Shown here: positions 2,070 through 36,120 of the stretch, piece after piece
How the letters are laid out: each line of letters opens with the position of its first letter
Numbering within the stretch: position 1 is the first letter of the stretch
Source: Thermanaeromonas sp.
GTDB taxonomy: Bacteria; Bacillota; DSM-521; Neomoorellales; Neomoorellaceae
Assembly: GCF_021890735.1 (NCBI RefSeq)
Contig: NZ_JAKKUR010000010.1
Span: 1 to 50,613 of the forward strand
DNA length: 50,613 nt
Reading direction: 5' to 3'
Notes under the pieces: model-generated
Seen by the model: only the letters and a program-made list of their open reading frames with translations
Told to the model about the DNA's origin: nothing
Databases searched by the model: none
Program-made: the position numbers and the translations under genes

Positions 2070-3245
2070 ATGATCTGTCGCATTGAAAATAGCCAGAGAG
2101 GCCAGGCTTTACTGTTTGTAGTGCTTGTGACCTCCCTCGTTTTAGCTCTTACTACGGGTGTTTTAGAAGTTGCCGGTATCCACCGCCGGAACATCCAGTA
2201 CCAAAGGCAGCAGGTGCAAGCTTATTATATAGCTGAGGCTGGTATAGAAAGGGTTATAGCCAGGATAAGGGAGGATCCGAGATGGCTGGATGGATTTGGA
2301 TGGGGGCGGGATGAGACGGTAACGGAACTTACGGGCCCTTACGCCGGCGGCGAGATCCGCAAGGTAACCTTACATAAAAGCGCCGACGGTCCGGGACTAA
2401 AAATAGAGGTTACCTCTTTAGGAAAATTTGTGAGCGCTCAAAAGACCTTAAAAGCCACATTATATTACGTAAGCGTGCAGAACCTCCTTGGGGGTTTAAG
2501 CCTCCTACCTCCTACGCCCCTTGATCTAGACATACGAGGGAATTTCTCTCTGATGAATACTGGCCTGAACCGGGGAAAGTTGCTCCTTAACGGGAATCTT
2601 ACGCTTTCAGGCTCTGCTTATGTGGATGCAGACGTATACGTTTCAGGAAGCGTAGAGGGTTGGGATAAGATAGAAGGTCAGGTGTATACCAATGTTAGGG
2701 ATTTTCCCCGCTTTCCGGAACTAAACCTTAACTATTACGAAACAGAGGCCAGGCAGGCAGGCCAATACTATTCTGGAAATGTTACTTTAAGCGGAACGGG
2801 TGTTTATACAGGAGTATATTACGTTAAAGGAAATCTTACCTTTTCCGGTACTTATTCCGGACAGGCCACCTTTGTAGTAGAAGGAGATGTTTCGATCCCT
2901 AGGGATCTTTTGCCGGCTTCCTCCTACGATAGGATTACTATTATTTGCCTGGGTGATGTGGACATAGAAAATAGCCAGGTAAAGGCCATTATTATAGCTG
3001 GAGGAACTTTCCATGCTAAAGGGAATGCGGAGCTGGAGGGAGCCTTGATGGCCCAGGGTTTAAATTTCGGAGGGCTGGGTATAGGCGAAGGTGATGGCGA
3101 AAGTAGAGGCGGAGGTAGAGGAAAAGGTGGAGGTGGAAATGTTACCATTAGATATAACCCGCAGCTCATTGAGCTCTACTCACTTATAGGAGTGTTGCCG
3201 CAGCTAAAGATATTATCTTGGAAAGAAAATTATCCCGTCTTTTAA
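2070..3245 (+). CDS. PilX-like pilus assembly protein with glycine-rich insert
   Basis: About 391 residues. The N-terminus (RGQALLFVVLVTSLVLALTTG) is a PilX-type membrane helix without the strict GFTLxE leader, followed by AYYIAEAGIERV, a hallmark of PilX-like proteins. The central region (residues about 155-330) has short beta-repeats such as NLTLSG, DVYVSGSVEG and NLTFSG, which suggest a right-handed beta-helix or bactofilin-like fold. Near the C-terminus, bases about 3070-3140 encode a Gly/Arg/Glu-rich low-complexity run. The ATG at 2070 was chosen over an upstream TTG at 2055 that lies inside the previous gene. It is unusually long for PilX, so it may be an adhesin-like or surface-exposed subunit (inference). 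Confidence 0.75.
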   Translation: MICRIENSQRGQALLFVVLVTSLVLALTTGVLEVAGIHRRNIQYQRQQVQAYYIAEAGIERVIARIREDPRWLDGFGWGRDETVTELTGPYAGGEIRKVTLHKSADGPGLKIEVTSLGKFVSAQKTLKATLYYVSVQNLLGGLSLLPPTPLDLDIRGNFSLMNTGLNRGKLLLNGNLTLSGSAYVDADVYVSGSVEGWDKIEGQVYTNVRDFPRFPELNLNYYETEARQAGQYYSGNVTLSGTGVYTGVYYVKGNLTFSGTYSGQATFVVEGDVSIPRDLLPASSYDRITIICLGDVDIENSQVKAIIIAGGTFHAKGNAELEGALMAQGLNFGGLGIGEGDGESRGGGRGKGGGGNVTIRYNPQLIELYSLIGVLPQLKILSWKENYPVF

Positions 3246-3290
3246 ATTATTGCCTTTCCTTTATGAGGCTTTCTGCCTAGCAGGAGGATT

Positions 3291-3365
3291 ATGTCGTTCA
3301 GCTTAACACGATTATTAAAAGAAGATATAAAAAACAGGAGGAAAAATGCTTGTTCCGCATTTTAA
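3291..3365 (+). CDS. Possible 24-residue leader peptide overlapping pilM
   Basis: A short ORF with an ATG start sits 5 to 8 bases after a strong Shine-Dalgarno sequence, AGGAGG at 3283-3288. It encodes a basic 24-residue peptide beginning MSFSLTRLLKEDIKN and stops at 3365, inside the start region of pilM, whose own AGGAGG lies within this ORF. The arrangement would suit translational coupling. No family is recognised, and the ORF is too short for coding statistics. It could also be a decayed gene fragment. Confidence 0.35.
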   Translation: MSFSLTRLLKEDIKNRRKNACSAF

Positions 3366-4243
3366 GGCGTACAGATAAGAGTTTGCTGGGGGTAGACTTG
3401 GGCTCTAGGCTCATCAAAGTGGTGGCTTTAAAGGGCAGGCGGGTGGTAGCTCAAGGCATGAGGGAAGCCCCGCCTGCCGGTGTAGTCGACGAAACCCAGA
3501 TGACCGCCGCTTTGGTCGATGTTGTTCAGCAAAGCGGTTTTAAAGGCAGAAAAGCGGTAAGCGCTATAGACGGTGAGAGGGTCATCGTACGTTACCTGCG
3601 GCTTCCCCGCATGCCTGAACAGGAGTTGCGTTCAGGGCTCGAGTATGAGGCTGAGAGATATCTACCTGTGAGTACGCAGGATATGGTATTGGACTGCGCC
3701 ATTTTGGACCCCGAGCCTACGGGCTTTGCAGGCCAGATGCTGGTAATGTTGGCGGCAGCACCCCGGGAATTGGCTTTCTCGTATTATCGCATATTTCGGG
3801 CGGCAGGCCTGGAATTGGTGGCCCTGGACCTGGTACCGGCAGCTTTGTGCCGGGCTCTGGCGAGACAAATAAATGAGGAGGCCATCGTTTTGGAGTTGGG
3901 AGCAAATTCTGCTCAGGTGATCCTGGTGAGGGGAGGACAATTGCTATACAGCAGGAGGATAAATGCGGGCATTGCAACAGTTTCCCCGGAAGATACCCCG
4001 CAGGGCTTTAATCCCCTTTTTAACCTGCTCCAGGAGATCCGCCGCTCTTTAGAGTTTTACCGTTCCCAGGTGGGGAGGGAATTCAGCCCGTCTAAGGTTT
4101 ATCTTACCGGAGGAGGTTCATACCAAGAAGGGCTGAAGGATTTTTTAGAGATACAACTTGAACTGCCAGTTGAAATGGGGAGTACTTACGGCCTTGGCCC
4201 TGAATTCGCCGTAGCTGTGGGCCTGGCACTAAGGGAAAGTTGA
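3350..4243 (+). CDS. pilM: Type IV pilus assembly ATPase-like protein PilM
   Basis: A 297-residue protein of the FtsA/actin-like fold. The phosphate-binding motif LLGVDLGSRLIKVVAL lies at the N-terminus, with later actin-like segments AIVLELGANSAQVILV and VYLTGGGSYQEGLKDF. PilM is cytoplasmic and binds the N-terminal tail of PilN, linking the motor to the PilN/PilO inner-membrane assembly. The start is TTG at 3350 with AGGAGG 8 bases upstream; the nearby ATG at 3346 is out of frame and stops quickly. pilN and pilO follow in order, supporting the call. Confidence 0.92.
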   Translation: MFRILRRTDKSLLGVDLGSRLIKVVALKGRRVVAQGMREAPPAGVVDETQMTAALVDVVQQSGFKGRKAVSAIDGERVIVRYLRLPRMPEQELRSGLEYEAERYLPVSTQDMVLDCAILDPEPTGFAGQMLVMLAAAPRELAFSYYRIFRAAGLELVALDLVPAALCRALARQINEEAIVLELGANSAQVILVRGGQLLYSRRINAGIATVSPEDTPQGFNPLFNLLQEIRRSLEFYRSQVGREFSPSKVYLTGGGSYQEGLKDFLEIQLELPVEMGSTYGLGPEFAVAVGLALRES

Positions 4244-26480: not shown

Positions 26481-27880
26481 GCCTAAAGAAGACCCCCATG
26501 CCTTGCCAGCCACCGGAGGAGCGCATTCGTAATTTCCAGGAGGTTGCCCTGGGTTATACAGAAGAGCAGGCCAGGATGGAGGCAGAAAGGTGTCTGCAGT
26601 GCAAGAAGGCACCTTGCCGTCAGGGTTGTCCGGTAGAAATAGATATTCCGGCCTTTATCAACTTTATAAAACAGGGAGACTTTGAGAGTGCTATCAAAAA
26701 AATAAAGGAAAAGAATAACCTTCCGGCTATATGCGGCAGGGTCTGCCCTCAGGAAAACCAGTGTGAAAAATACTGTACGCTATCTAAGAAAGGCGAACCT
26801 GTGGCCATCGGGAGGTTGGAGCGTTTCGTTGCCGATTACGAGTTGGCCCGTGGAGAAAGTGAGCTACCGACTTTGCCTCCTCCTACCGGTTTTAAGGTGG
26901 CAGTCGTCGGTTCAGGGCCGGCTGGGCTTACCGCCGCGGCAGATCTGGCCCGTATGGGGCATAAAGTCACAGTATTTGAAGCCCTTCATGTACCCGGCGG
27001 GGTTCTTATGTATGGTATACCCGAATTTCGCCTGCCTAAAAGGATCGTTCAAGCCGAAGTAGACTACATCCGGCGCCTTGGCGTGGAGATACGCACCAAC
27101 TCTGTAGTAGGAAAAATGGTGACGGTGGATGAGCTTTTAGAGAACGGTTATGATGCAGTATTCATCGGCACCGGTGCAGGGCTTCCCTACTTTATGGGCA
27201 TTCCCGGAGAGAATTTACTGGGTGTGTACTCGGCCAACGAATTTCTTACCCGTACCAACCTGATGAAGGCCTACCTTTTCCCGCAGTATCTTACCCCTAT
27301 TAAGGTCGGTGAGAGGGTGGCGGTCATCGGCGCGGGTAATGTGGCCATGGATGCCGCCCGTACGGCCTTACGCTTAGGGGCCAAAAAATCGATGATAGTT
27401 TACCGGCGCTCGGCAGAAGAGATGCCGGCCCGCAAGGAAGAGGTAGAGAATGCCAGGGAGGAAGGAGTAGAGTTCCACTTTTTGACCAGCCCGGTAGAGT
27501 TCCACGGTGATGAAGCCGGATGGGTTAAACGCATGACATGTATACGTTACGAACTGGGTGAACCGGATGCCAGCGGCCGGCGCAGGCCCGTTCCCGTCCC
27601 GGGATCAGAATATCATATGGAGGCAGATACCGTAGTAATAGCCATCGGTCAAGGCCCCAATCCCCTGGTTCTCCGTACCACCCCTGGCTTGGAGCTAACC
27701 AAGAAAGGGACCATCGCGGCCGACGAGGAGACGGGGGCCACTTCCAGGCCGGGCGTCTTCGCCGGAGGGGATATAGTAACCGGCGCGGCTACTGTTATCT
27801 TGGCCATGGGCGCAGGGAAGAAGGCCGCCCGGGCCATCGATGCTTATCTTCGAGAAAAGGGGAGGAGAAGCCATGGCTAA
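26471..27880 (+). CDS. nfnB: NfnB-like subunit (glutamate synthase small-subunit family)
   Basis: A 469-residue iron-sulfur flavoprotein. The N-terminal ferredoxin-like domain has two cysteine clusters ([14 protein letters not shown] and [15 protein letters not shown]) that bind [4Fe-4S] centres. FAD binding is at [19 protein letters not shown] and NADPH binding at [19 protein letters not shown]. The family also includes GltD and SudA, but fusion-free pairing with an NfnA-like subunit favours the bifurcating transhydrogenase. No gltB large subunit is nearby. The GTG at 26471 has better spacing from GAAGGGGGG than the TTG at 26465. Confidence 0.92.
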
Positions 27881-28718
27881 TATATTGGACGGTAAAAAGA
27901 TTGCAGCCGAAGTCCGGGAAGAAGTGAAAAGAGAGGTACAAGAGTTAAAGGAGCGCGGTGTCACGCCGGGGTTGGCGGTTATCCTGGTAGGTGACGATCC
28001 TGCCTCGCAGGTTTACGTACGCAACAAACACAGGGCTTGTGAAGAAGTAGGCATATATTCTGAAGTGCACAGGCTGGCTGCCAGCACCACCCAAGAAGAG
28101 CTTCTAAAGCTTATTGACCAGCTTAACCGTGATCCCCGCATACACGGGATCTTGGTCCAGCTCCCCTTGCCTGACCATATCGACGAAAAGAAGGTCATCG
28201 ATAGTATAGCTTTAGACAAGGATGTGGACGGTTTCAGTCCCTCTAATGTGGGCAATCTGGTGATAGGAGACAAGTGTTTCTACCCGTGCACACCCCACGG
28301 TTGCATGGTTCTATTAGACCGGGCCGGTATTGATCCCAAAGGAAAGAAAGCTGTGGTGGTAGGCCGTAGCAATATCGTAGGCAAGCCCATGGCCATGATG
28401 CTTTTAGCCCGCCATGCGACGGTAACCATCTGCCATTCTCGCACGTCCGATCTCGCAGCCGAATGCCGGCAGGCGGATATTCTCGTGGCGGCGGTCGGGA
28501 AACCTGAGCTTATTACCGGCGACATGGTCAAAGAAGGTGCGGTAGTCATCGATGTAGGTATAAACCGGCTCCCGGACGGCAGACTGGTCGGGGATGTACA
28601 TTTTGAGAGCGTAAGTAAGAAGGCTTCTTGGATAACCCCTGTCCCTGGCGGGGTTGGCCCCATGACCATAGCCATGCTACTTAAAAACACGGTGGAGGCT
28701 GCCCGGCGGGCGTGTTAA
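27873..28718 (+). CDS. folD: Bifunctional methylenetetrahydrofolate dehydrogenase/cyclohydrolase
   Basis: A 281-residue enzyme that interconverts methylene- and formyl-tetrahydrofolate using NADP(H). The active-site region has [17 protein letters not shown] with the catalytic Lys, then [22 protein letters not shown] and the nucleotide-binding [18 protein letters not shown]. The ATG at 27873 overlaps nfnB by eight bases, with GGGGAGGAG upstream. In acetogens this enzyme sits in the methyl branch of the Wood-Ljungdahl pathway and uses NADPH, so genetic linkage to Nfn is meaningful. Confidence 0.97.
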
Positions 28719-29950
28719 ACCGGCAGCGCGTGTTGAGCGTAAGCGAAATCAATCTCTATATCAAGGAATTACTAGATAAGGATGCCCGCCTCAGTAACGT
28801 CTGGGTAACAGGCGAGATATCCAACCTTAAATGGCATTCTTCCGGCCACCTTTACTTTAGCTTAAAGGATAGGGCTGCGGCGCTGCGCTGTGTTATGTTC
28901 CAGGGCCGCTGCCGCAACTTGAGGCTCAGGCCGGAAAACGGAAAGCAGGTTATAGCGCGAGGATATATCAGCGTATACGAGCGGGATGGCTTGTACCAGC
29001 TTTATGTGTTGGACCTTTACCCGGCGGGTATGGGCCTGCTGGAAGCAGCTCTTCAGGAGTTAAAGAAGCGGCTCGAAAAGGAAGGCCTGTTCGATCCCAC
29101 GCGGAAACGGCCCCTTCCTAAACTCCCGCAGAGGATAGGTTTGGTTACTTCGTTAAATGGGGCAGCCTGGCGGGATGTAGTAACCGTTGTCAGGCGGAGA
29201 TATCCGGGTATGGGGATTGTCCTGGCCCCCGCTGCTGTACAGGGAGAGACGGCGGTAGAAGAGATAGTGGCTGCTATAGAAAATTTAAACCGGTGGGGGA
29301 AGGTAGATGTAATAATTGTGGGCCGCGGGGGCGGTTCAGCAGAAGAGCTTGCGGCCTTTAACACAGAAGAAGTAGCCCGGGCTATTTATGCCTCACGGAT
29401 ACCGGTTATCACTGCCGTGGGCCACGAGACGGATTATACGATAGCCGATCTCGTAGCCGACCGCCGGGCCCCTACCCCTTCTGCGGCTGCGGAGATGGCC
29501 GTTCCCGTACGGGACGAACTTGAACGGGAAGTGTTAAAACTTAAGGAGCGGCTTGACCGGAGTGTACTTTATAGGTTACAGCTTATGAAGGAGAAGCTAG
29601 AAAGACTGGTCCGGAGCCGGGGCTTAGCCCGGCCTGAACAGGAGATATACTCCCGCCAGCAGTATCTGGATACTTTAGAGCAACGGCTTGAGGCTGCATG
29701 GTCCTTGTTATGGCAGGAGAGGCTTACGAAACTTGAACTTTTAACGGCCCGCTTGGAGGCGGCCAGCCCTTTAACCATCTTACGAAGAGGCTATGCTGTT
29801 TGCCGGAATTTGCCGGACGGCCGCATCATTCAAGCCAGCAGTGAGGTAAAGCCGGGAGATAGGGTGGAGGTTATCTTGAGGATAGGCGCCCTGCAATGTT
29901 TAGTGGAGGAAGTAGAGGGGGAACGGAGTTGGCAAGGGAGAAGGAGTTAA
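28712..29950 (+). CDS. xseA: Exodeoxyribonuclease VII large subunit
   Basis: A 412-residue nuclease subunit. An N-terminal OB-fold ([37 protein letters not shown]) is followed by the catalytic core with [45 protein letters not shown] and a long C-terminal coiled coil. With XseB it degrades single-stranded DNA. The GTG at 28712 overlaps folD by seven bases; GTG at 28730 is an alternative start. Confidence 0.95.
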
Positions 29951-30168
29951 CCTTTGAAGAAGCCTTAAGCAAATTGGAATCCGTTGTGCAGGCACTGGAA
30001 GGTGGAAACCTTAAATTAGAGGAAGCCCTGGATTATTACCAGGAAGGCATAAAGCTGGTACGCTTTTGCCGGGAGCAGCTCAACAAATTTGAGCACAGGC
30101 TTCAGATCTTGATGGCCCGGGAGGATGGCGAACTGGTGGTCCGGCAATTGGAGCTTCCGGAGGTATAA
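29929..30168 (+). CDS. xseB: Exodeoxyribonuclease VII small subunit
   Basis: A 79-residue helical protein; [20 protein letters not shown] and LEEALDYYQEGIKL match the XseB consensus closely. Multiple copies bind the coiled coil of XseA. The TTG at 29929 follows GAGGGGG by 7 bases and lies inside the 3' end of xseA (22-base overlap), so the two are coupled. Confidence 0.95.
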   Translation: MAREKELTFEEALSKLESVVQALEGGNLKLEEALDYYQEGIKLVRFCREQLNKFEHRLQILMAREDGELVVRQLELPEV

Positions 30169-30172
30169 GGTT

Positions 30173-31060
30173 ATGGATTTAGCGAATTATCTCGCCAGTC
30201 GCCGGAAGTTGGTAGAAGAAGCCCTTGAGAAGGTGGTTCCGCCACCCGGAGCCTTCCCCTCCATCATACATGAAGCTATGCGTTATAGCCTTTTTGCAGG
30301 CGGGAAAAGGCTCAGACCCATACTGGTTTTGGCGGCGGGGGAAGCCGTGGGGTGCCCTGCAGATAAGCTTTTACCTGCGGCCTGTGCGGTGGAACTCCTC
30401 CATACTTATTCCCTCATCCACGATGACCTACCGTCCATGGATAACGACGACTACCGGCGGGGCCGCTTAACTTGCCACAAAGTTTACGGTGAAGCTATAG
30501 CTATTCTGGCGGGGGATGCTCTGCTTACCGCGGCTTTCGGTGTCTTAGCCGAGGAGGTTCAAGTTGGATGTAGTCCGGAGGCTACTCTGGCTGCTATTCG
30601 TGAGCTCGCCCTGGCTGCCGGCAGCCAGGGATTAGTCGGAGGGCAGGTAGTAGATCTTCTCTCCGAGGGGGGCTCTCCGGAAGCAGAGCTGGTAGAATAT
30701 ATTCACCGCCATAAAACGGGCAGCCTTATCCGGGCTTGTGTCCGTATCGGCGGACTTTTGGGAGAAGCAACCCAAGACGAGCTAGAAAGGTTAACTCGTT
30801 ACGGAGAGGATATCGGACTTGCCTTCCAGATTATAGATGATTTGTTGGATATAGAAGGGGAATTCTATTATACGGGAAAGGCTACGGGAAGTGATGCTAA
30901 AAAACAAAAGCTTACTTATCCTGCCTGCTTCGGCATAGAAAAATCGAGGCAAGTGGCCCGGGAACTTGTGGACCGGGCAGCCAGTACTGTAGAGGAATTG
31001 GGAGAAAAGGCCTGGCCTTTAAAGGCCATAGCTCATTATATTGTAGAACGCAAAAGCTAA
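30173..31060 (+). CDS. ispA: Farnesyl/geranyl diphosphate synthase
   Basis: A 295-residue all-helical prenyltransferase that condenses isopentenyl and allylic diphosphates. Both aspartate-rich motifs are present: IHDDLPSMDNDDYRRG (first) and IIDDLLDIEG (second); GGKRLRPIL binds diphosphate. The ATG at 30173 is preceded by GGAGG at 30159-30163. In several Firmicutes ispA precedes dxs; here, as in other OLE-bearing species, a structured RNA and oapA lie between them. Confidence 0.95.
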   Translation: MDLANYLASRRKLVEEALEKVVPPPGAFPSIIHEAMRYSLFAGGKRLRPILVLAAGEAVGCPADKLLPAACAVELLHTYSLIHDDLPSMDNDDYRRGRLTCHKVYGEAIAILAGDALLTAAFGVLAEEVQVGCSPEATLAAIRELALAAGSQGLVGGQVVDLLSEGGSPEAELVEYIHRHKTGSLIRACVRIGGLLGEATQDELERLTRYGEDIGLAFQIIDDLLDIEGEFYYTGKATGSDAKKQKLTYPACFGIEKSRQVARELVDRAASTVEELGEKAWPLKAIAHYIVERKS

Positions 31061-31221
31061 TACAAAAAGCTAACAAGTGATAAAGACGCTTAAGTTAAAG
31101 CAAGGGCTTGCAAAAGAAAGCTATAATGAAGTACAAGAAGCGTTATTACCTTCTGGTGGGGTTTATTTTTCCTTGCTCCCTGTGGTAAACCGTGGCGGAC
31201 GATAGCTCTTGTTTCTTTACC

Positions 31222-31251
31222 TTGCCGAGGAGCTATTATATACCCTATAAT
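31222..31251 (+). promoter_or_regulatory. Sigma-A-like promoter of the OLE RNA
   Basis: TTGCCG at 31222-31227, an 18-base spacer, and a perfect TATAAT at 31246-31251. Transcription would begin around 31258, where the structured RNA starts. The 31061-31221 stretch between ispA and this promoter holds no ORF; it contains an inverted repeat ACGCTT (31086) / AAGCGT (31138) of unclear role. Confidence 0.65.
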
Positions 31252-31257
31252 ACTTGA

Positions 31258-31890
31258 TACCGGGGCTTAAGGCCTAATGGTTCGGTGGGTGGCGCAGTAT
31301 CCTAGTCAGTACCACCCTTTCTGAAGACGGGCCTAAAAATCCGTCAAGGGCATAGCGATGAAGTTCCTGGTGCTGGCTGCCGACGCCCAGTCGGGGGCTG
31401 GTGCTGGGAGTTAAGGAAGGAGGGCGATCTACAAAGGCATGTAGGCGTTGACCCTCCTTCCGCGGAGACCCAAGTGCGTGGGAAAGTCCTCGAAAGCGGG
31501 GATGAGTACTATGGCTTGGGGTATAAACCTGCAGTCGGTACAAAGGGTGCTGGCTGCAGCGTAGCCTGCCTTGAGTGGTTGTGGTGGAAACCAGCCTCAT
31601 CATTGGGGGCTAACGTCAAGGTTGAAACCACAGCTGCAAAAGAGGCTAGGAAAGGGTTGGTGCTGTGGAGGAAAACTCCTAGGCTGTTTACCGCTTCGTT
31701 GGTAAGGCCTGCCAGGGATTAAAGTGTGTGCTAAGTGGTGATCCAGCTCTGTATACGGCGACGTTACAGGGCAACCTTTAAAGGGGAACCGCCGCTTACG
31801 GCGACGGGCGGTAGGTTGCCGGGAAAACCTGCTGGACCTAAGCCACAACGTTTACCTGGCAGGTTGCCACCCACTGTAGCGGTAAGCGAG
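31258..31890 (+). ncRNA. OLE (Ornate, Large, Extremophilic) RNA
   Basis: About 630 bases of non-coding, highly structured sequence between ispA and the oapA-dxs genes, the standard OLE locus in extremophilic Firmicutes. Perfect or near-perfect paired arms include GGGTGG/CCACCC (31287/31312), GGAAGGAGGG/CCCTCCTTCC (31415/31452, enclosing CTACA/TGTAG), CCACAGC/GCTGTGG (31628/31662), CTGTA/TACAG (31749/31765), a compound stem GGCAACCT+ACCGCC with GGCGGT+AGGTTGCC (31770-31793 with 31807-31820), and CGTTTACC/GGTAAGCG (31849/31881). OLE forms a membrane-associated ribonucleoprotein with OapA, whose gene follows directly; in Bacillus halodurans it is linked to cold, alcohol and magnesium stress. Boundaries are estimates from the promoter and last stem. 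No covariance model search could be run; identity rests on context, length and structure. Confidence 0.88.
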
Positions 31891-31924
31891 CAACAGACCT
31901 TTCTTTGGAGGAGAGTTTCGGTAT

Positions 31925-32521
31925 TTGGGGAGTAATAAGACCCGAAAGCGGAGATCTTGGCGGAATGCACTAACCACCGGTATCGGTACTTTTTTTTTGG
32001 CCTTAAGCTTGGGTTACTTATCCCAAACCTTCCTTGGGCGGTTGACCTCCCTTCTGGTTTCTTTTACTTTACTAGTAGCAATCATACTTACGGGTATAGC
32101 CTTTGATATTTTAGGTATAGCCGTAGCAGCAGCAGTAGAGCCGCCTTTACATGCACGCGCGGCAAGGAAGGTGGCGGGGGCCAAAGAAGCTATCTGGCTC
32201 CTCCGCAACGCCGACCGGGTAGCGAGCTTTGCCAACGATGTAGTGGGCGATGTGTGCGCCACCCTTAGCGGTGCCATAGGAGCCAGCATCCTCTTCCGAT
32301 TGGTGGGAGGATCAACCCAGGATATATGGATAACCACTGCCATGACCGCGGCTATCTCAGCTCTTACCGTTGGAGGTAAAGCGCTGGGTAAAAGTTTTGC
32401 CTTGCAGGAGGCTAACGAAATAGTTTTCCGGGTCGGCTGTATTTTGCATTTTTTGGAGAGGATAACAGGGAAAATGTGGGTACCCTCCAACAATCCAAAA
32501 AGGAAAGGTAGGGATTCATGA
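31925..32521 (+). CDS. oapA: OLE-associated membrane protein OapA
   Basis: A 198-residue membrane protein with a basic N-terminus ([12 protein letters not shown]) and about three to four hydrophobic segments ([44 protein letters not shown], and [16 protein letters not shown] plus the following helix). The region [24 protein letters not shown] resembles part of the DUF21/CNNM magnesium-transporter fold, as described for OapA. OapA binds OLE RNA and places it at the membrane. The TTG at 31925 follows GGAGGAGAG (31907-31915) immediately after the RNA, and the stop overlaps the dxs ATG (ATGA). Its position between OLE and dxs makes the identity strong. Confidence 0.9.
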
Positions 32522-34392
32522 GGATTCTCGATAAAATCAACTCGCCGGAAGATTTGAGAAGTTTAAACCTGAAGCAATTGGAGGTGTTGGCTCAGGAAAT
32601 ACGTGAAGAATTAGTATCTATTGTGTCTAGGACGGGCGGCCACCTGGCCCCTAATCTAGGTGTGGTCGAACTGACCCTAGCCCTGCACATGGTGTTTCAT
32701 TCGCCCCGGGACAAGATAATTTGGGATGTGGGACACCAGTGCTATGTACACAAGATGCTTACAGGAAGAAGGGAACGATTGTCTACTCTACGTCAGTTTG
32801 GGGGCTTGAGCGGTTTTCCTAAAAGGGAAGAAAGCCCCCATGACGTTTTCAATACCGGCCATAGCAGCACCTCGGTATCTGCTGCATTGGGTATGGCCCT
32901 GGCCAGGGATTTAAGGGGAGAGGATTTTGAGGTTGTGGCGGTCATCGGAGATGGAGCTTTGACCGGGGGCATGGCCTTTGAAGCCCTAAACCATGCTGGC
33001 CACCTTAGGACCCATTTGATCGTGGTATTGAACGATAACGAGATGTCCATATCGGGGCCGATAGGCGGGCTTGCTTCTTATCTTTCTAGGATGCGTACCG
33101 ACCCCCGTTACTTCCGGAGCAAAGAAGAGCTAGAGCTTATTTTGAAGCGTCTACCCCGATTGGGCCCACATTTTTTGAAATTGATAGAGCGCTTAAAGGA
33201 TAGCCTTAAATATCTAGTTATCCCCGGTATGCTTTTTGAAGAGCTGGGATTCACTTACCTGGGTCCCATAGACGGGCATAACCTTCTCCAGCTCAAAGAA
33301 ATACTCAGGCAGGCACGCCGGACTCCGGGTCCGGTGTTAGTGCATGTGGTTACTCGAAAAGGTAAAGGGTACCCTCCGGCGGAAAACCAACCGGAGGTGT
33401 TTCACGGGGTAGGACCCTTTGACCCGCACACAGGGAAAATACTACCTTCTCCAGGTCCCGTTACCTTTACATCTGTGTTCGGGGCCGAGCTTGTGCGGCA
33501 AGCGGAACAAGATGAACGGATAGTGGCTATTACGGCGGCCATGCCGGACGGGACGGGCCTTACGTCCTTTGCTAGGCGCTTTCCTAATCGCTTTTTTGAC
33601 GTGGGTATCGCTGAGCAGCACGCCGTTACCTTGGCGGCTGGCTTGGCCACCATGGGTTTCCGGCCTGTAGTGGCCATTTACTCGACTTTTCTCCAGCGGG
33701 CTATAGATCAGGTTATTCATGACGTGGCCCTGATGCGTCTTCCGGTTACTTTCATTCTAGACCGGTCAGGGTTGGTAGGAGAGGATGGGGAAACGCATCA
33801 AGGCATATTCGATATCGCACTTCTCAGGTGTATTCCGGGTATGGTGCTCATGGCTCCGAAGGATGAGCAGGAACTTAAATGCATGCTGGTGACGGCCCTC
33901 CAGGTTGAAGGCCCGGCCGCCATTCGCTACCCGCGGGGTCCGGGGGTAGGAGTCCCTCTGGAGGATCCGGCCCAGCCGTTACCGATCGGTAAGGGGGAAA
34001 TTTTACGAGAGGGACGGCAAGCGGTGATCGTGGCCATCGGCCCTCTAGTATATGCGGCGCTGAATGCGGCAGAGATCCTGGCTGCGCGCGGGCTCGACAT
34101 AGGGGTTATCAATGCTCGTTTTATTAAACCTTTAGACAAAGACATGATCGTCGAATGGGCTAAAAAAACTGGGCACCTTGTTACCTTAGAAGAACATGTG
34201 GTAGCCGGAGGATTCGGGAGCGCAGTTTTGGAGGCCCTGGCGGAGAGCGGGTGTACGGGCGTAAAGGTTAGAAACCTAGGTATAAGGGATATTTTTGTAG
34301 AGCACGGGAAACCTGATATATTGAGAGAAAAATTGGGTCTTACAGCCGCGGGCGTAGCCCAAGCTGTGGAAAGCCTACTTCATGCTCTATAA
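32518..34392 (+). CDS. dxs: 1-deoxy-D-xylulose-5-phosphate synthase
   Basis: A 624-residue transketolase-like enzyme that condenses pyruvate and glyceraldehyde 3-phosphate, the first step of the MEP isoprenoid pathway. Thiamine diphosphate binding is seen in [20 protein letters not shown], followed by [14 protein letters not shown]. The central domain has [19 protein letters not shown] and [18 protein letters not shown]. The ATG overlaps the oapA stop, so it is coupled to the OLE-associated gene. With ispA it brackets the OLE locus. Confidence 0.97.
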
Positions 34393-34406
34393 ACCGGAGG
34401 GGGAAG

Positions 34407-35222
34407 ATGGGTACTCTTAAGAAGCGGCTGGATGTAGAGCTGGTAGATAGAGGATTCTTTCCCAGCCGGGAGAAGGCGCAGGCAGCCATCATGGCGGGTA
34501 ACGTGCTGGTGGAAGGTCAGAAGGTAACCAAGCCGGGCACTATGATATCTGCTAACGCTCGATTAGAAGTGGTGGGATCCTCTTGCCCCTACGTGAGCCG
34601 GGGAGGGCTAAAATTGCAACATGCGTTGGAAGTTTTTACGGTAGATCCTAGGGACAAAGTGGCTTTAGATGCGGGTGCCTCCACCGGAGGCTTTACCGAT
34701 TGCCTTTTGAAGCACGGGGCCAAAAGGGTTCATGCAGTCGATGTGGGTTACGGGCAATTGGACTGGAGTTTAAGGCAAGATCCCCGGGTGGTAGCACATG
34801 AACGTGTAAACGTAAGGTATTTAACACCGGACATTCTAGGAGAGTTGGTAGATCTGGCTACTCTAGACCTGTCTTTTATTTCCCTTAACAAGGTTTGGTC
34901 GGCAGTAGCCCGCTGTTTGAAACCCGAGGGTCAGGTCTTAGCCTTAGTTAAACCCCAATTCGAGGCCGGCCCTGAAAAGGTGAGCAAACGCGGAGTAGTG
35001 CGTGACCCGGAGGTTCACCGGCAAGTATTACGGGAAGTAGCTCAGGGTGCCCGCAGGCAGGGTTTCGGTGTGCACGGTCTTACTTTTTCTCCCCTCTTGG
35101 GGCCGGAAGGCAACCGGGAGTTTTTTCTTTGGGGTGTGCTGGGTGTTCCGGGCCTGGCGGAAGAAGAGCTTGAAGCACAAATTTTTTCAGTTGTGGACCA
35201 GGCCCATACCCAGTTGCGTTAG
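34407..35222 (+). CDS. tlyA: TlyA-family rRNA methyltransferase (YqxC)
   Basis: A 271-residue protein with an N-terminal S4 RNA-binding domain (KKRLDVELVDRGFFPSREKAQAAI) and a C-terminal FtsJ-like SAM methyltransferase (LDAGASTGGFTDCLLKHGAKRV, TLDLSFISLNKV, LVKPQFEAG). TlyA-type enzymes 2'-O-methylate ribosomal RNA; some were first named hemolysins. It is placed 14 bases after dxs, as in Bacillus and Moorella relatives. Confidence 0.94.
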   Translation: MGTLKKRLDVELVDRGFFPSREKAQAAIMAGNVLVEGQKVTKPGTMISANARLEVVGSSCPYVSRGGLKLQHALEVFTVDPRDKVALDAGASTGGFTDCLLKHGAKRVHAVDVGYGQLDWSLRQDPRVVAHERVNVRYLTPDILGELVDLATLDLSFISLNKVWSAVARCLKPEGQVLALVKPQFEAGPEKVSKRGVVRDPEVHRQVLREVAQGARRQGFGVHGLTFSPLLGPEGNREFFLWGVLGVPGLAEEELEAQIFSVVDQAHTQLR

Positions 35223-35237
35223 GCTCAAGTAAATATA

Positions 35238-35246
35238 TGGTATAAT
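35238..35246 (+). promoter_or_regulatory. Extended -10 promoter upstream of NAD kinase
   Basis: TGG followed by a perfect TATAAT at 35241-35246 (TGnTATAAT form). No good -35 is seen, as is common for extended -10 promoters. Transcription from about 35253 would supply nadK-argR-recN independently of the long upstream operon. Confidence 0.5.
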
Positions 35247-35271
35247 ATTTCCCGGAAATGGGGGACAGAGG

Positions 35272-36120
35272 TTGAAAAAAATTGGCCTTATAGCCAATTT
35301 AGATAAACAAGGAGTCGGGGAAGTGGCGCTGGGGCTGGCCAGGTGGCTGGAAGAAAAGGGAGTACAGCCTCTGATTTTAAAAAGCAATTCCGTAAAGCTC
35401 GGTTGTCCCTGGTGGGGTGCCGAACCGGAAGTCCTGGCCAGCGCCGATTGTGTATTGTCTTTGGGAGGCGACGGGACACTGTTAAGGTCTGCGCGTATTC
35501 TCGCCCCGTGGGGGACTCCCGTTCTAGGGGTAAACTTGGGCCATCTAGGTTTTCTTACCGAAATTGAAGTAAAGGAGCTCTTTCCGGCCCTAGAGCAGCT
35601 CCTTTTGGGCCGCTTTCATATAGAAGAGCGCATGATGCTAAAAAGCTCCTTGGTACGGCAGGGGACCAGAAAGGAATTTTGGGGTTTAAACGATGTAGTG
35701 ATCACCAAAGGAGCCTTTTCCCGTATGTTAAGGCTTAAAGTTTATATAGGTCCCCACTATCTTGATACCTACCGGGCAGATGGCCTCATTATTTCTTCTC
35801 CGACCGGTTCTACAGCCTACTGCCTATCAGCCGGAGGCCCTTTGGTTTCACCTCAGCTACAGGTCATGATCCTAACCCCCATATGCCCCCACACCCTTTA
35901 CGCCCGGCCGCTGGTAGTTCCTGCAGATCAAGAGGTACGGGTGACGGTTTACACTGCTGGCGCCGAGGTTATGCTCACAGTAGACGGCCAGCAGGGTATA
36001 AACTTGATGCACGGAGATGAAGTGATAACCTCCCGGGCCCCTTTCTCGGCGCGGCTTATAAGGCTTAAGGAGCGATCCTTTTATACTCTTCTCCGGGAGA
36101 AATTCAGGGAAGGGGAGTAA
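35272..36120 (+). CDS. nadK: NAD kinase
   Basis: A 282-residue enzyme that phosphorylates NAD to NADP. It has the catalytic GGDGT motif in CVLSLGGDGTLLRSAR, then LGVNLGHLGFLTE and the substrate-binding TYRADGLIISSPTGSTAY. The TTG start at 35272 begins KKIGLIAN, typical of the family. It lies between tlyA and argR, an order conserved in clostridia. Confidence 0.96.
   Translation: MKKIGLIANLDKQGVGEVALGLARWLEEKGVQPLILKSNSVKLGCPWWGAEPEVLASADCVLSLGGDGTLLRSARILAPWGTPVLGVNLGHLGFLTEIEVKELFPALEQLLLGRFHIEERMMLKSSLVRQGTRKEFWGLNDVVITKGAFSRMLRLKVYIGPHYLDTYRADGLIISSPTGSTAYCLSAGGPLVSPQLQVMILTPICPHTLYARPLVVPADQEVRVTVYTAGAEVMLTVDGQQGINLMHGDEVITSRAPFSARLIRLKERSFYTLLREKFREGE

Follow-up and report, generated by a model that had tools for sequence, protein, structure and literature searches.

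Two look-alike GNRA hairpins in OLE RNA domain 2: a P13 loop that follows OapB and a P12.1 loop that may dock on P12

The described systems closest to the locus studied here are the OLE RNAs themselves and, for the type of contact proposed below, the GNRA tetraloops that dock on helices. In the available sections of two reports (PMC12265935, PMC9723947), OapB is described as contacting P12.2 and P13 of OLE RNA. The same sections of the former present OLE domain 1 as solved in the form of a dimer and domain 2 as unresolved in the published cryo-EM models, and add that, judging from low-resolution density, domain 2 dimerizes too, as does a fragment carrying the OapB site. According to the accessible part of PMC11332333, the variant-1 OLE RNAs have a shortened P13 tip that was linked to missing OapB. 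A published OLE alignment comprises 1,517 representatives (legend in PMC12054373). With respect to helix receptors, the excerpts available from PMC3494683 associate GUGA with AG/CU and GUAA with GG/CC, and report that GCGA was always found with AG/CU in the crystal set, and the H93-H74 contact of 23S rRNA is a GNRA loop on a helix receptor following the AG/CU or GG/CC rule (PMC2738903, in the part available). Designed self-docking tectoRNAs, in which loop and receptor lie on one arm, work best with 11-bp stems, as described in the accessible text of PMC6614920. In the portions of the literature retrieved for OLE RNA together with GNRA, the sole co-mention of both was a list of motifs.

The window, that is, the whole stretch of 50,613 nucleotides from Thermanaeromonas sp. 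that was analysed, carries a full-length OLE RNA (RF01071) at 31273-31886 on the forward strand (cmscan 498.7 bits, with a gathering score of 50, covering model positions 1-616), which is the single OLE match in the host assembly of 142 contigs. An oapA candidate of 198 amino acids begins 39 bp downstream (31925-32521, forward strand, start codon provisional). Its tentative identification draws on a sub-threshold Pfam match and on its OLE-flanked relatives: the sole Pfam match is to CNNM at 25.6 bits, under the family cut-off of 28.4, an NCBIfam search of the 198-residue protein gave no match, and a protein search of genome contigs placed OLE at most 3 kb away at 9 of 11 loci of its relatives. 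Two loci (L052 and L054) carry oapA-like genes at 3001-3540 with no OLE inside the fetched 3-kb flanks, and the genomes concerned have OLE at another locus (L328, L327). Across 27840-36120 of the window, the gene order, with names given by eye and from no search, reads folD, xseA, xseB, prenyl synthase, OLE, oapA, dxs, rRNA methylase and NAD kinase. The host genome also encodes an OapB homologue (L300:1735-2025), flanked by ORFs taken by eye for map and infA, and its best match among solved structures is 7k9b, OLE-associated protein B (1.9e-5 with the single sequence, 7e-16 with the profile). The locus resembles the known OLE RNA with its OapA, OapB and OapC partners in the full-length model match, in the oapA-like gene directly downstream, in the presence of an OapB homologue and in the conservation of the OapB region, P12.2/P13; the window's member differs solely by a 2-nt bulge in P13.

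The comparison covered a single phylum and, in addition, a few named contigs; a search directed at a second phylum drew the identical sample. OLE was searched in 22 genomes of the class (19 matches) and 398 genomes of the phylum (284 matches), and 11 named contigs were added via OapA, nine of them with OLE within the fetched stretch. From 102 OLE sequences a covariance model was built for P12-P13, and a search of 295 loci with it recovered this region in 294 (100, 99 and 95 in three batches). Loop counts refer to 293 parsed OLE domains, two genomes being counted twice (L055/L207 and L060/L154) and two loci being excluded, L059 because it is cut off and L173 because it gave no domain match; nine loops missed by the strict rule were assigned by eye (five of P12.1, four of P13), and those of L323 were read from its sequence. 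The OLE tree was made from 286 sequences longer than 500 nt, using exclusively columns outside domain 2. One OLE (G170) has domain 2 absent, and a search of viral contigs for OLE with one pattern gave 0 matches.

The initial annotation had drawn attention to a 9-mer, ACGGCGACG, repeated within the OLE RNA. Both copies are there, on the forward strand at 31755-31763 and 31798-31806, 43 nt apart, and neither strand of the window holds a further copy; chance alone predicts 0.17 matches for the window, and two copies appeared in 1 of 100 shuffles. The stem CTGTA/TACAG named around the first copy is also present (31749-31753/31765-31769). The compound stem assigned to the second copy stood in part: GGCAACCT and AGGTTGCC do pair (31770-31777 with 31813-31820), but this stem is P12.2, while the second loop caps P13, with a joining strand between them. 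What did not hold is the description of the repeat as a 9-nt loop, since both folding and the Rfam structure line leave only GCGA in the loop (31758-31761 and 31801-31804) and pair the flanking CG...CG; they also pair A31755 with U31764 and leave A31798 bulged. Each copy is, thus, a GCGA tetraloop of the GNRA class plus its closing C-G and G-C pairs, on two neighbouring hairpins, P12.1 and P13. The former (31749-31769, forward strand as all elements described here) has 8 bp and a bulged U31754, a fold z of -5.31 and covarying pairs across 102 sequences; its label was derived from its position between P12 and P12.2 in the published P12/P12.2/P13 numbering. P12.2 is supported by Rfam pairing and covariation. 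P13 (31791-31812), delimited by Rfam pairing and by folding, is the OapB-binding stem-loop described in the available sections of PMC12265935 and PMC9723947, and in the window its 2-nt bulge is made of U31797 and A31798. Pieces of 52 and 103 nt have the GNRA form as their fold of lowest energy, at an ensemble frequency of only 0.22 and 0.04. An isolated 26-nt P13 piece (31788-31813) folds otherwise, part of the second 9-mer pairing upstream.

Neither loop varies freely among relatives, and neither copy is missing from most of them: the P12.1 loop is GNRA in 281/293 domains (276 by the strict rule and 5 by eye) and that of P13 in 293/293 (289 and 4), with a G-C closing pair in 276/281 and 290/293, respectively. 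The exactness of the repeat is another matter. Both exact 9-mers occur in just 2 of 294 OLE domains, that of the window (L001) and L011, and a relative from the same genus (L014) has GCGGCGACG in P13. Across 272 RNAs, the same 8-mer was found in both loops in 49 cases, with 40.1 expected from each loop's own frequencies, and the same tetraloop at both sites in 99, with 89.6 expected. The identity of the two copies is therefore near chance and carries no signal of its own; selection for identical copies was rejected, the sharing of 8-mers being close to independence, and the copies are alike because both sites conserve a GNRA loop with a G-C closing pair, not because of a need to match. For the same reasons, and because the stems around the two loops share no sequence relation, a recent duplication, or a shared signal requiring identity, is extremely improbable, even if an exact 9-mer repeat with 0.17 expected matches might at first sight suggest it. 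One RNA (L183) has no GNRA loop on P12.1 but carries in its place a perfect palindrome of 14 nt, CTGTTTTAAAACAG, by which two molecules could pair; L204 resembles it.

The two loops were then told apart by their relation to OapB. A profile built on 16 relatives detected OapB in 316 of 398 phylum genomes and in 22 of 22 class genomes; a search with Pfam KOW for OapB recovered ribosomal L24- and NusG-like loci alone. Sixteen of the 284 OLE-bearing genomes gave no OapB match, a figure obtained by comparing the match lists by hand, with 62 negatives unnamed in the OapB listing. The P13 loop has the form G[GYRA]C in 269 of 270 RNAs from genomes with OapB and in 5 of 16 from genomes without it (Fisher 2.4e-15), while for P12.1 the corresponding figures are 249 of 259 and 14 of 15 (p=0.47). 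The sole OapB-bearing exception (L120) has an A-U closing pair on its P13 loop, and all 10 P13 loops with GAAA in this set belong to the 16 genomes lacking OapB. Of the 11 genomes with neither OapB nor the usual P13 loop, 10 retain a P12.1 loop, and in all of these it is still G[GYRA]C. The changed P13 loops fall at three places on the OLE tree, one being a run of eight neighbouring tips, so that they represent about three events and not eleven. Since the variant-1 link had already been reported, the dependence of P13 on OapB extends a known correlation. These observations support the notion that the P13 loop belongs to the published OapB-binding site, and they led us to reject paired OapB sites, because the P13 loop tracks OapB and the P12.1 loop does not. 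The proposal that both loops are equivalent protein sites, for instance two contacts for OapB, could draw on the motif Y-G[GNRA]C-R, which prevails in both, and on the binding of OapB to P13 together with P12.2 (available sections of PMC12265935 and PMC9723947), yet it is very unlikely in view of the stability of P12.1 in genomes lacking both OapB and the usual P13 loop. Of the earlier suggestion of paired protein-binding or tertiary contact sites, it can be said that each role seems to hold for one of the loops, but not for a pair of equal sites.

A candidate partner for the P12.1 loop came from covariation with the helix P12, whose strands, UCCAGC (31742-31747) and GCUGGA (31831-31836), are paired in Rfam. 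In the numbering used here, pair 45-33 corresponds to 31745-31833 and pair 46-32 to 31746-31832; A31745-G31746 on the 5' strand and C31832-U31833 on the 3' strand make up the two halves of the proposed GNRA receptor. Among 286 sequences, pair 46-32 is G-C in 285, and pair 45-33 is A-U in 245, G-C in 37 and G-U in 4. Other than with itself, the third base of the P12.1 loop shares most mutual information with 31745 and 31833, two positions paired to each other in P12. RNAs with A-U at pair 45-33 have G as the third base in 181 cases and A in 56, and those with G-C have G in 5 and A in 28 (Fisher 1.1e-11), whereas the third base of the P13 loop shows no such association (p=0.31). When the null was simulated on the tree, the observed value was reached in 0 of 600 runs in each of two directions, and the P13 control gave p=0.31-0.32. 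A test of dependent rates yielded an LRT of 20.0 for P12.1 (p=0.0005) and of 2.0 for P13 (p=0.74); the top LRT among 44 random control columns was 19.9 (31579C), their median being 4.8. Parsimony places seven separate gains of the G-C pair on the tree, with GNAA prevailing in five of them, GNGA in one and the loop lost in one. The third loop base of P12.1, but not that of P13, thus covaries with the P12 pair as expected for an RNA receptor.

In a column scan of 1390 tests, pair 45-33 (p=0.0013) was exceeded in z and in correlation only by the loop's own column, although the P11 column 31864C ranked above it by p (0.0007), another P11 column, 31707G, tied with it, and the signal fails correction for all columns; when the scan is restricted to pairs with more than 100 informative sequences, 45-33 has the largest correlation, in the direction that the rule predicts. 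The rule, GNGA with A-U and GNAA with G-C, is obeyed in 210 of 271 sequences and broken in 61, mostly by GNAA with A-U (56 of the 61). Twelve RNAs have lost the P12.1 GNRA loop, and eight of them keep the A-U receptor pair. When a receptor was sought for the P13 loop by an equivalent scan, no interpretable helix pair stood out. The likeness to known GNRA contacts on 2-bp helix receptors, such as 23S H93-H74 and the set in the available excerpts of PMC3494683, includes the GCGA loop, which the window combines with A45-G46/C32-U33, an AG/CU receptor type; the tandem C-G/U-A receptor, in the same orientation; and the covariation of the third loop base with the second receptor pair. It differs from them in that the OLE contact would join either neighbouring helices of one junction or two RNA copies, and in that it is proposed from sequence covariation.

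The region holds additional elements. RNAalifold, run on 102 sequences, paired GG[GAAA]CC and GG[GAAAN]CC, two mini-hairpins that are unpaired in the Rfam model. Mini-hairpin 1, of the general form GG[GNAA]CC, occupies the strand joining P12.2 and P13 (31783-31790); on the tree, its outer and inner pairs show 7 and 6 compensatory changes and are broken in 7/286 and 0/286 sequences, and its loop is GNAA in 286/286 (GAAA 223, GGAA 60, GUAA 3). Mini-hairpin 2, GG[GAAAN]CC, lies between P12.2 and P12 (31821-31829), with 2 and 3 compensatory changes and no broken pair in 286 sequences. None of 16 slid versions used as controls showed compensatory changes. Added to P12.1 and P13, the mini-hairpins bring the number of GNRA-type loops to four in about 75 nt of domain 2; these two and the proposed P12.1-P12 contact are what the Rfam structure line of OLE is missing. 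Mini-hairpin 2 may have been published as a stem with a different number, and mini-hairpin 1 may already be visible in the 2021 work of Yang, which reportedly dealt with OapB and P12.2/P13. At the base of P12, CUAAGUGG (31731-31742) stands opposite CCUAAG (31837-31842), a strongly conserved arrangement resembling the 11-nt tetraloop receptor in one of its strands. The GAAA/11-nt receptor has the sequence UAUGG/CCUAAG, and CCUAAG lies next to the P12 base in many OLE RNAs; however, the opposite strand in OLE is AGUGG, and the CCUAAG strand varies (CCUUAA, CCUCAA, CCUAUG). A canonical 11-nt receptor was accordingly discarded for this site, where AGUGG, not UAUGG, faces a variable CCUNAR-like strand.

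How could these observations be integrated? The explanation that we consider best, to which a probability of about 0.6 can be given, is that the two GNRA hairpins of OLE domain 2 would do different work, the P13 loop serving as OapB site and the P12.1 loop docking on P12, most likely reciprocally between two OLE RNAs. In this model, the third and fourth bases of the P12.1 loop would occupy the shallow groove of P12, contacting it at C31832-G31746/U31833-A31745, the receptor being of the classical AG/CU helix type and becoming GG/CC when the loop is GNAA. We infer this physical contact, as well as its being between molecules, from the covariation and from the spacing. On the 5' strand, the distance from G31746 to the P12.1 loop is 11 nt in 257 of 281 RNAs and 12 nt in 20, and the segment measures 34-36 nt in 278 of the 281 RNAs with a P12.1 GNRA loop and 23-65 nt in the 12 without it. 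Fixed length by itself is no proof of docking, since the distance is almost as invariant for P13 (10 nt in 240 of 293). With receptor and loop on one strand and 11 nt, about one helical turn, apart, end-to-end stacking of P12 and P12.1 would leave a loop scarcely able to contact the receptor of its own molecule. Docking between two OLE RNAs is thereby favoured, in keeping with the 11-bp optimum of the tectoRNAs and with the published dimerization of domain 2 and of the OapB-site fragment. The preference for docking in trans over docking in cis comes from this spacing with stacking of P12 and P12.1 assumed, the 11 nt including just 9 pairs and an unpaired or bulged nucleotide. Such reciprocal docking might help to pair two copies of domain 2. 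The resulting picture, in which domain 2 pairs with a partner copy through reciprocal P12.1-P12 docking, as a natural counterpart of tectoRNA dimers, while P13 takes OapB, is put forward tentatively, at somewhat less than an even chance. It shares with the designed loop-receptor homodimers described in the accessible text of PMC6614920 the location of loop and receptor on one arm, some 11 nt apart, and the possibility of reciprocal docking; it differs in that OLE is a natural RNA, with a branched junction and a bulge between receptor and loop, and in that an OLE dimer formed by this route is a proposal.

Two alternatives to this model have to be weighed. The P12.1 loop might be a stable cap only, the covariation with P12 reflecting shared ancestry, a notion that finds some ground in the imperfect rule (210/271), in the weak significance across the scan and in a control column with an equal LRT. 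We regard it as unlikely, though deserving of serious weight, because five of the seven origins of the G-C pair obey the rule, the internal control provided by P13 shows nothing, the direction and the bases were set by a published rule (PMC3494683, in the excerpts available), and a loop acting purely as a cap would have no need of a constant 11-nt spacing. The same covariation would also fit an intramolecular contact, with the loop docking on P12 or a different OLE helix via a sharp bend at the junction, to which the bulged U31754 in the P12.1 stem could contribute by bending the hairpin. However, the receptor is 1-2 bp from the junction and the loop tip 8 bp out, so that helices placed side by side would be out of register, a point reached by reasoning, and docking in cis appears fairly unlikely. 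Reciprocal docking of P12.1 on P12, with OapB on P13, continues to be the preferred reading.

OLE RNAs are among the largest and best conserved bacterial RNAs whose biochemical function is unknown. Here, two look-alike loops have been told apart, one following OapB and the other not, and specific candidates for loop and receptor pair, joined to a swap rule, offer a direct mutational handle on the folding or the dimerization of domain 2. If true, P12.1-P12 docking would give OLE dimers a second interface, independent of the contacts in domain 1 seen by cryo-EM.
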